Below, piece after piece: positions 57,247 to 60,918 of a stretch of 64,000 bases of DNA. A model generated the notes under the pieces. That model did no database searches. It saw nothing but the letters and a program-made list of their open reading frames with translations, and had not been told where the DNA came from. Position 1 is the first letter of the stretch. The number at the start of each line of letters is the position of its first letter. The stretch comes from Bryobacterales bacterium (GTDB taxonomy: Bacteria > Acidobacteriota > Terriglobia > Bryobacterales > Bryobacteraceae). Both the position numbers and the translations under genes were made by a program. The stretch is from positions 1 through 64,000 of the forward strand of contig CANFEY010000009.1 in NCBI GenBank assembly GCA_947446025.1, written 5' to 3'.

Positions 57247-58791
57247 ATGCTCACACGCCGCACGCTCTCGAAAACCCTCCTCGCCGCCCCGTTTATTTTG
57301 AAGGCCCAACAAGGACCGCTACGCGCCCGCGTCAAGATCGACACCGAGCGCATCATCGGCGACATTGATCCGAAGATCTACGGCAATTTCGCCGAACATT
57401 TGGGACGCTGCATCGACGGCGGAATCTTTGACGAAAAGTCACCGCTCTCCGACGCCAAGGGCTACCGAAAAGATGTTCTGGCCGCCGCGAAGGACCTGAA
57501 CGTCACGCAGCTCCGCTGGCCGGGCGGCAACTTCTCCTCCAACTACCACTGGCGCGACGGCATCGGACCGCGCGATCAGCGGCCTCCACGCCTCGATATG
57601 GCCTGGGGAGCGGTCGAATCGAATCGCTTCGGCACGCACGACTTCCTCGACTATTCACAAGCGCTGGGCGCGGAGCCCTACATCTGCGCCAACCTCGGCA
57701 CAGGCACTTGGACCGAAGCGCAGGAGTGGGTGGAGTACTGCAACGGGTCCGCTGACACCGCCGTAACACGCGAGCGCAAGCGCAACGGCCGCGCCGAGCC
57801 GTGGAAGGTCACCTACTGGGGCCTGGGCAATGAGATGGACGGCGGCTGGCAGATGGGCCACCGCGATGTGGTCGAGTATTCCAAGTTCGCACTGGAAGCC
57901 GCGAAGCTGATGAAGTGGACTGATCCGAGTATCAAGCTGATCGCCGCAGGCTCGTCGAATTACGGAGGAGGCTCCGATTGGATCGGTTGGAACCGCACCG
58001 TGCTCGACTTCCTCAAGAACCACGCCGACTATCTTGCGCTACACCTCTACGTCGGCAACAACGCGAACGACTACCCGGAGTTCATCGCGTCCTCCATGGA
58101 ACTCTACGACCGCATCAAGACAGCCGAGGGCGTAATCGATGCGGCTCTCAACGGCGTGCGTAACCGCAAGATCTACATCGCGTGGGACGAGTGGAACGTG
58201 TGGTACCGGGCGCGCGGTGCCAACCAAGGCACGGGCCGCCGCATCCTGGAAGAGCACTACAACTTAGAAGACGCACTGGTCGTCGCCACCTTCCTCAACG
58301 CCTTCATCAACAACGCCCACATCCTGAAGATCGCGAACATGGCGCAACTGGTCAACGTGATCGCGCCCATCTTCACTAACGATACTGGCCTGTTTTTACA
58401 GACAATTTACTACCCGCTGCAGCTCTTCGCCAAGAACGCGCGGGGCAAGGCGCTGGACCTGTTCGTCGAAACGCCGCGCTACAACAGCCGGCGCTTCAAC
58501 GGCGTCCCCTATCTTGACATCTCCGCCGCCCACGACAACGGATCGCTGGTGATCAACGTAGTCAACCGTCACCGCACCGAGGCCATCGAGACGACCTTCG
58601 AGGCGCAGGACAAAGGTTTCAGTACCGCCGTGGAAGCTGTGGAAGTGAACGGTCCCGATATCAAGTCCGAAAATGATTTCGGCAAGTCGCCCGTCGCGCC
58701 CGTGATCCGCACCGCAGCGGCACAACCGAAGACGTTACGCTACAGCTTCCCGCCGCACTCCTATACAATGCTGCGCGTCAAACTTGTTTGA
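57247..58791 (+). CDS. Alpha-L-arabinofuranosidase, GH51, Tat-exported
   Basis: A 514-residue GH51 enzyme removing arabinofuranose from plant-type hemicellulose. A Tat-like signal (MLTRRTLSKTLLAAPFILKA, twin Arg) begins the protein. DPKIYGNFAEHLGRCIDGGIF is the family start, GLGNEMDGGWQMG holds the acid/base Glu, and IAWDEWNVWYRARGAN the nucleophile Glu. The C-terminal beta domain ends PHSYTMLRVKL. It is transcribed away from the PQQ gene. Its stop overlaps the next gene by 14 bases in convergent orientation. Confidence 0.93.
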   Translation: MLTRRTLSKTLLAAPFILKAQQGPLRARVKIDTERIIGDIDPKIYGNFAEHLGRCIDGGIFDEKSPLSDAKGYRKDVLAAAKDLNVTQLRWPGGNFSSNYHWRDGIGPRDQRPPRLDMAWGAVESNRFGTHDFLDYSQALGAEPYICANLGTGTWTEAQEWVEYCNGSADTAVTRERKRNGRAEPWKVTYWGLGNEMDGGWQMGHRDVVEYSKFALEAAKLMKWTDPSIKLIAAGSSNYGGGSDWIGWNRTVLDFLKNHADYLALHLYVGNNANDYPEFIASSMELYDRIKTAEGVIDAALNGVRNRKIYIAWDEWNVWYRARGANQGTGRRILEEHYNLEDALVVATFLNAFINNAHILKIANMAQLVNVIAPIFTNDTGLFLQTIYYPLQLFAKNARGKALDLFVETPRYNSRRFNGVPYLDISAAHDNGSLVINVVNRHRTEAIETTFEAQDKGFSTAVEAVEVNGPDIKSENDFGKSPVAPVIRTAAAQPKTLRYSFPPHSYTMLRVKLV

Positions 58792-60010
58792 GTGCCTGCT
58801 CGAAATCGGTGAGCAGATCCCGCCAATCTTCGATGCCCACCGACACACGGACCAGGCCGTCCGTAATTCCGTTTTCCGCGAACTGCGCGTCGGTGAAGCC
58901 GGAGTGTGTCGTAGTCTTGGGGTGGCACACCAGCGTCTCCACGCCGCCTAGCGACACCGCCATGTAGGCGAGCTTCAAACGGCGCAGGAAGTCGAAGGCG
59001 GCGGGCTTGCCGCCGTGTAGGTCAATGGAAAACATCGCGCCGGGATAGTCACACTGCTCGGTGCGGATGCGGCGCTGCTCGGAGTCGGTGAAGAGAGTCG
59101 GGTAGATCACGCGCTGAATCTTTGGATTGGCGGCAAGGCGCTCCGCGATCCGCTGCGCGTTCTTGCTTGCCTTGTTCATCCGCAAGAGCACGGTGGGCAA
59201 GCGTTGCGTCAGCATCCAGCATTCGTCCGGCTGCAGAATGTTGCCGAACAGGCTGCGCTTCAGATGCATAGCCTGAATCAACGCGGGGTCTTTCGCCAGC
59301 ACGACGCCGCCGATGAAGTCGCTGGAGCCCGAAAGATACTTCGTCGCCGAGTAGAGCACCATGTCGGCCCCGCGCTTGAGCGGATGCTGAAACGCGGGGC
59401 CCAGCATGGTGTTATCCACCATTACCAGCGGGCGCGGCGTGCGCTCGGCGGCAAGGTTGGCGCATTCCTGGATGCTGGTCATCACCAGCGTCGGGTTCGC
59501 GGGCGTCTCCACCAGAACAACCTTCAAGCGCTCGGTATTGCGCACCGCCGCTTGCATCTCGGCGTGATTGCCCGCGCGCACTGCGATTCCGCGCACGCCC
59601 CATGAGGCCAGGAACTTTTCCACCAACGTCTGCGTGCCGCCGTAAATCGGGATTGTGTAGACCACCGCGTCACCGGGCTGAAGAAACGCCAGCAGCGCGG
59701 TCATGATCGCGGCCATGCCAGAGTTGAACGCCAGCGCGGCCCGCGCACCCAGTTCCAAAGGCACAATCTAATCTTCCAGAATCTGCGCGTTCGGGTGGTT
59801 GAAGCGCGAATAGATCAGGTCCGGAATTTCGCCGGCCTCCGGCTGCTCGCGCCCAGAGGAAAGATCGAACGCCCGCTCCGCGGCTTCGGGGCTGGAAAAA
59901 ACGTAGGTCGAACTGCGAAACACCGCGGGCCGCGCCGAACCCACCGAAAGCCGTGGATCAAAGCCGCGCGTCAGGGTCTGCGTGGGAGGCCGTTGTTTCT
60001 TTTCGGGCAT
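58778..60010 (-). CDS. Trans-sulfuration PLP enzyme (cystathionine gamma-synthase/lyase family), interrupted by TAG
   Basis: One open frame of 411 codons broken only by TAG at 59770-59768 (codon 81). The first part ends FNHPNAQILED and the second begins IVPLELGARAALAFNSG, which join seamlessly as in the family (usually ILED[x]IVPLE). The PLP lysine lies in LYSATKYLSGSSDFIGGVV, PIYGGTQTLVEKFL is typical, and the C-terminus SVGIEDWRDLLTDFEQAL is classical. It is a Cys/Met metabolism (Met-gamma-lyase, MetB/MetZ) type enzyme. If TAG is a true stop the protein is dead. If it is suppressed, a full 410-residue enzyme results. A shorter start downstream would lose the N-terminal arm. Confidence 0.82.
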
Positions 60011-60056
60011 GCCATCAGTCTACGCTGTATTTTCGTTGCTATATTGAAAGGGTCCC

Positions 60057-60680
60057 GTGACCCCAACCCCCGCCACTCCCGCCTTTGACGAAGCCCCGCT
60101 TGTTGCCCGGGCCAAGGCTGGGGATGCGGCGGCGCTTTCTGAGCTGGTCTCCAAGTACGAGCGCAAAATCTTCCGCTTGGCAAAAAACATTACGCGGCAG
60201 GATGAAGACGCGGAAGACGTGCTGCAGGACGCGTTCCTGAAGGCCTACGAACACCTGGACCGGTTTTAGGGCAACTCGAAATTCTACACCTGGTTGGTGC
60301 GCATCGCGGTGAACGAAGCGCTCATGAAGCTGCGCAAACGCAAGACGGACCGCACGGTTCCGCTTGATGAACCCGTGGATTTGGGCGAAGACGTTATGCA
60401 GCGCGAGATCGCTGTGTGGGACGGCAACCCTGAGCAGCTGTATTCGGGCGAAGAAATGAAGAAGATCCTTGAGGACGCGCTGGACACCCTCAAGCCAGAT
60501 TTCCGCACCGTTTTTACGCTGCGGGACATCGAAGAATTGAGCACGGAAGAGACGGCCGAGGCACTGGATATTTCCGTGGCTGCCGTGAAGAGCCGCCTGC
60601 TGCGGGCGCGGCTCGCGCTGCGGGAGAAGTTGACCCGCCAGTTCAAGCGTAAAGGAGGCACAGGGTTTGATTTCATGTAA
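60057..60680 (+). CDS. ECF RNA polymerase sigma factor, interrupted by in-frame TAG
   Basis: A 207-residue sigma-E-type frame, GTG start at 60057, broken by TAG at 60267-60269. The first part ends in region 2.2 (DEDAEDVLQDAFLKAYEHLD, RF) and the next codons read GNSKFYTWLVRIAVNEALMK, the region 2.3-2.4 that normally follows FQG or FRG. A CAG-to-TAG change at that Gln position explains the break. Region 4 (FTLRDIEELSTEETAEALDI and VAAVKSRLLRARLALREKL) is intact. It overlaps the anti-sigma gene by 14 bases, so the pair was a functional unit until the interruption, or still is if TAG is suppressed. Confidence 0.85.
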
Positions 60681-60918
60681 AGACTTCCTGCGGGAACTGA
60701 ACGAATACCTGGACGAGGCGGTGGACCCGGCCACGAAGCAGCATTGGCAATCGCATGTCGACGAGTGTCCCAACTGCTTCGTGATCGTGGATACGACCAA
60801 GAAGACGATGCAGGTTTACAAGGGCATGGAAGAGCAGCAGCTGCCCGTGGACATCAAGAGCCGCTTGATGCAGGCCTTAGAAAGGAAGATGGCGGCCCGA
60901 AAATCCGTCCCGCAGTAA
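60667..60918 (+). CDS. Zinc-finger anti-sigma factor (ZAS type)
   Basis: An 83-residue anti-sigma factor from a TTG start inside the sigma gene's 3' end. The HVDECPNC motif (H-x3-C-x2-C), with C4 as a possible fourth ligand, is the ZAS zinc site that senses redox or metal stress and binds the sigma region 2-4 interface. No membrane helix follows, so it is a soluble form. It holds the sigma factor inactive until a signal acts. Confidence 0.85.
   Translation: MISCKDFLRELNEYLDEAVDPATKQHWQSHVDECPNCFVIVDTTKKTMQVYKGMEEQQLPVDIKSRLMQALERKMAARKSVPQ

Follow-up and report, generated by a model that had tools for sequence, protein, structure and literature searches.

What an in-frame stop codon signifies in a gene that is otherwise well conserved is the question raised by an ECF sigma factor gene of a Bryobacterales bacterium, which is interrupted by a TAG. 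The gene lies in the window, meaning here the whole stretch of 64,000 nucleotides that was analysed (contig C9, positions 1-64000, of a 4.43-Mb draft genome, G000, in 120 contigs with a completeness of 99.88). Such a stop could stem from a recent mutation or from an error in the consensus, or it could be read through, or it could divide the gene into two products. The explanation preferred here, to which a probability of roughly 0.6 is assigned, is that of an ordinary interrupted coding sequence: the ECF sigma gene, well conserved in other respects, carries a nonsense allele of very recent origin. The features of the locus are collected in Table 1.

Table 1. Positions of the sigma locus and its interrupted neighbour in the window
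Feature	Position	Strand	Basis or remark
ECF sigma factor gene, interrupted	60057..60680	+	GTG start; ORF reading and profile matches
In-frame TAG, codon 71 of sigma	60267..60269	+	immediately 5' of GNSKFYTWLVR
Head-to-head neighbour, cystathionine gamma-synthase family (PRK07049-like), interrupted	58778..60010	-	ORFs and profile matches
Second in-frame TAG, codon 81 of the enzyme gene	59768..59770	-	Gln in 19 other copies
Anti-sigma gene, intact (zf-HC2, H..C..C, TTG start)	60667..60918	+	ORF and profile match
Extended -10-like element TGCTATATT	60037..60045	+	11 bases 5' of the sigma start codon

The interrupted sigma gene and its anti-sigma partner

The sigma frame contains a single break, the TAG, and is open over the remainder of its length, with coding signal on both flanks of the stop. 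When read through the TAG, it matches Sigma70_r2 (E 1.2e-19) and Sigma70_r4_2 (E 6e-16) in profile searches and scores 206.1 bits against NCBIfam PRK11922 (cut-off 204), with the region 2 and region 4 domains then sharing one frame. The stop sits within the Sigma70_r2 match (residues 30-96), and hence the proposal of a sequence-only reading, that an ECF sigma factor is broken by a TAG inside region 2, is borne out; the interruption of this frame is confirmed as a genuine observation on this sequence. The uninterrupted open frame of a working ECF sigma factor is thus lacking at this position. Judging from the position of the stop, translation would yield 70 residues and end short of both the GNSKFYTW stretch and region 4; the truncated product, from which some of region 2 and the whole of region 4 would be absent, would probably not constitute a working sigma factor. 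That the two halves are instead made as separate proteins, by means of a restart past the TAG, is extremely unlikely: the downstream half does contain a TTG start at 60294, but no ribosome-binding site is visible ahead of it by inspection, the region 2 match would be cut in two and a split of this kind is unseen in all relatives read.

The anti-sigma gene, whose 5' end overlaps the 3' end of sigma, has an intact frame, as had been claimed. It is preceded by AGGAGG at 60653-60658, 8 bases ahead of its TTG codon, and with a ribosome-binding site of its own its translation would not need to depend on that of sigma. Its dN/dS is 0.095 and 0.18 when compared with the relatives G014 and G007, respectively, and its score of 41.1 bits with the RsrA-like anti-sigma model falls under the cut-off of 62.5. 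Gene adjacency thus provides the adjoining anti-sigma gene expected of an ECF sigma factor, with binding being putative, and an H..C..C motif follows sigma in 74/77 relatives' loci. The locus resembles known pairs of ECF sigma factors and zinc-binding anti-sigma factors (PRK11922; RsrA-like) in domain order, in the anti-sigma overlap and in the H..C..C motif, and differs from them in that the sigma reading frame is broken by a TAG. Upstream of sigma, the -10-like pattern recurs in 44 of the 77 relatives' upstream stretches as compared to a shuffle mean of 1.2, and is absent in G007. Promoter loss as a cause was considered and is unsupported, given that the -10-like element is kept, though a pattern scan of 59900-60340 found no full sigma-70-type -35/-10 pair.

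The reading of TAG in this genome

Amber readthrough had also been raised for sigma. Applied to both stops, TAG would be read as an amino acid in sigma and in the interrupted enzyme gene located head to head with it, yielding both full-length proteins at low level. Both stops are indeed TAG and both genes look constrained past them, and the sigma TAG shares with UAG-to-Gln reassignment its placement where many homologues have Gln. However, the genome departs from such reassignment on several counts. None of the 43 tRNA genes that passed the Rfam cut-off carries the CUA anticodon of a suppressor, in a set that is incomplete, lacking tRNA-Ile GAU, so that a CUA tRNA may have been missed; release factor 1 is retained (prfA, 516.5 bits against a cut-off of 423.25); and the two PylS matches are both below cut-off (best 22.9 bits against 178.15). 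Furthermore, TAG is the commonest terminator among 203 long ORFs in a 425.7-kb sample of the genome, ending 78 of them as compared to 65 for TAA and 60 for TGA. Programmed readthrough would lead one to expect a stop conserved in orthologues, and this one is not; nor was a structure found downstream of the sigma TAG, where 197 of 200 shuffled sequences match or surpass the actual RNA in folding (z = +1.96). TAG thus serves as an ordinary terminator in this genome, there is no sign that these two stops are decoded in any special manner, and functional readthrough or recoding is accordingly regarded as quite unlikely. A more specific version, in which the head-to-head ambers form one species-specific translational switch and both proteins are made only as amber readthrough rises, for example through a near-cognate tRNA-Gln under stress, is highly unlikely. 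A 2021 paper (PMC8629427) states that all known bacterial code changes reassign UGA, and holds pseudogenes with in-frame stops responsible for false stop-codon inferences made for some yeasts.

In-frame TAGs are not widespread in the 425.7 kb. Scanning this sample for stops with coding signal both before and after them gave 19 candidates, of which two, the sigma and enzyme stops, were accepted by eye, the other 17 being taken for gene boundaries or shadow frames; the sensitivity of the scan corresponded to 556 detections of a planted stop in 1225 trials. In a control of 420 kb from G014, using the codon table of G000, six candidates were obtained and none was accepted, being by eye likewise gene boundaries or shadow frames.

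Internal stops marked in domain matches of the window's own genome were every one TAG, amounting to 1/30 for sigma region 2, 1/61 for ABC, 1/2 for the enzyme, 4/35 for MFS and 0/17 for adh_short. A TAG-only bias was nevertheless discounted, because on the basis of codon use alone TAG would make up 52-53% of new nonsense codons and two of the four MFS stops (C77:5762 and C3:8652) are by appearance natural gene ends; another, at C3:9331, lies upstream of a frameshift. Several of these genes are worth recording in their own right. The MFS transporter gene at C3:8652-9924, which we take to be NarK-like, has an in-frame TAG and a frameshift and looks decayed, and by eye a TAG followed by a frameshift is present in a second MFS transporter (C13:80431-80580, about 2 kb from a contig end). 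An ATPase-like, sub-threshold ABC fragment (C55:29792-29920) likewise has a TAG and then a frameshift near a contig end, and on the minus strand of C9 at about 85527, also near the contig end, a translated direct repeat (KYCKLVSP.SDGMLPVS) was observed. In the sigma search across genomes, the stops among the matches listed were the window's TAG and a TGA in G027, and for sigma region 2 across 23 genomes the window's gene alone has a stop among the matches listed. Drafts of this kind thus occasionally contain internal stops.

Residue at the TAG site and age of the stop

Two sets of orthologues, having genomes in common, were aligned at the site: the best 29 with loci given, all from other genomes, and 80 named loci, mostly from Bryobacterales, Bryobacteraceae and other Acidobacteriota metagenome bins, of which 77 were readable after three (L136, L140, L143) had been dropped for misfit to the search motif. 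The site is uninterrupted in all 29 and in all 77. Codons in the first set are CAG (14), AAG (4), CAA (4), CAT (3), GAA (2), CAC (1) and AAA (1), and residues in the second are Q (66), K (5), H (3), E (2) and L (1), while in the sigma-E structure 1or7, presumably E. coli RpoE, an Arg aligns with it. FQG is hence the common sequence at this place, as had been stated, with Gln being commonest (66/77) at a site that is variable. A CAG to TAG change at a conserved glutamine, as originally proposed, does not hold up equally well, since the nearest relatives of the window's sigma, G014 and G007, carry GAA (Glu) and another path is more parsimonious. In a gene tree with the site masked, the window's gene and that of G014 are sisters (support 0.983), and G007 branches next to them. 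Because synonymous distances instead pair G014 with G007, the codon that preceded TAG is uncertain, but under both groupings Gln directly before TAG is not the simplest history.

Matches to the sigma at E <= 1e-30 were found in 46 of the 61 genomes searched, the window's own counted, a few of the 46 holding only paralogues near 40% identity; in the window's genome itself the one other match at this threshold shows 39% identity. One relative's record (L109, CALQCC020000007.1) is titled Bordetella parapertussis, has a sigma 96% identical to the window's and a neighbourhood fitting Bryobacterales loci, and looks like a misnamed metagenome bin.

Strong constraint is seen along the entire sigma gene, with a dN/dS versus G014 of 0.017 for the whole gene, 0.015 before the TAG and 0.019 after it. 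A long-decayed pseudogene would show relaxed constraint past the lesion, and the downstream value does not; since the downstream half is strongly constrained, the stop must be either very young or absent from the organism. Leaving the stop aside, 43 synonymous and 4 amino-acid changes are private to the window's branch as compared to 20 and 0 on that of G014, with one of the four replacements being Phe to Leu at a position with Phe in all 29 relatives compared. This excess of amino-acid changes appears small. Neutral evolution along the whole branch would be expected to produce about 137 amino-acid changes, and arithmetic from the change counts gives an unconstrained time of roughly 3%, and under about 7%, of the branch. 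No lasting decay is apparent in sigma or in the enzyme gene. It had been considered odd that a dead sigma should be accompanied by a kept anti-sigma; a young stop would have left the anti-sigma gene no time to decay, and the oddity would then dissolve. The anti-sigma may still be made and be idle, or its level may be lowered by polarity.

A second TAG nearby and the origin of both stops

The enzyme gene raises the same question a second time, with its TAG only 499 bases from that of sigma. Its two halves match PRK07049 at model residues 13-90 and 98-426, each under the whole-protein cut-off, and translation would likewise be truncated, after 80 residues. In the comparison of this gene, 20 of 21 loci were read, the window's own included, with L100 being dropped for motif misfit, and the Gln at codon 81 in the other 19 is encoded by CAG in 15 and by CAA in 4. 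After the TAG, dN/dS amounts to 0.14-0.24 against six relatives and 0.11-0.22 in four pairs of relatives; before it, synonymous sites are saturated in four of the six comparisons. One of the other copies, from another genome of the order (L108, G037:C463), has a TAG of its own at codon 79, where others have Glu, 8 residues from a contig end. A single mutational signature for the two stops of the window, such as deamination, was considered and is unsupported, as Glu in the sigma of the nearest relatives and Gln in the enzyme point to different changes.

The main rival to a recent nonsense allele is that the organism lacks the TAGs, or has them in a minority strain only, and that they stem from a consensus or strain-mixing error in one short stretch of the draft assembly. 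This is a serious but on balance unlikely explanation. The short distance between the stops, the 120 contigs of the draft and a sigma gene that looks constrained up to the present all fit an error, and so do internal stops in other drafts, since the enzyme search returned, besides the window's TAG, that of G037 and a TAA in a paralogue of G033. Gene order unlike that of many relatives also fits it. Divergently upstream of sigma, thrS is found in at least 35 of the 80 relatives' loci, some of which are cut by contig ends, whereas in the window the enzyme (PLP) gene occupies this place; the enzyme gene lies within the fetched sigma flank in one of the 80 (L144, downstream), and a search of the 425.7 kb sampled from the window's genome detected no thrS. 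Arguing against an error, the sigma, anti-sigma and enzyme frames are without frameshifts and about 25 kb separate the site from the nearer end of C9 (85,709 bases).

The young nonsense allele is favoured by the intact orthologues, by constraint until recently, by TAG being a normal stop and by the codon-use prediction of TAG, with further support from the lack of a close second sigma copy and from decayed-looking genes, judged by eye, at C3, C13 and C55. Two TAGs 499 bases apart are, however, unexpected from independent mutation, and the absence of gene decay fits an error equally well. Two random sites in 425.7 kb would fall this close in about 0.2% of cases, a figure computed after the fact from a sample that includes C9, which entered it on account of the finding itself. 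The closeness of the two stops is the only odd part, for which the preferred reading does not account. It would follow if a short stretch were prone to error, and equally if the locus, next to a gene neighbourhood that has changed, had recently become dispensable.

With an in-frame stop and intact orthologues, the sigma gene belongs to the interrupted coding sequences (ICDS), which one report on bacterial genomes finds to include authentic mutations as well as sequencing errors, the latter accounting for 28 of 73 in M. smegmatis (PMC1852416). As in the cases of that report, the window's sigma has one in-frame stop in a gene that is intact in relatives, and it differs from them in that two such genes lie head to head. 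The outcome would be a dead sigma whose anti-sigma is idle, or an intact sigma should the TAG be an error, in which case the locus would serve as a caution on how single stops are read in draft genomes. Should the TAG be real, the lineage would just have lost an ECF sigma factor that many of its relatives have kept, and the locus would provide a snapshot of regulator loss ahead of the decay of its anti-sigma.
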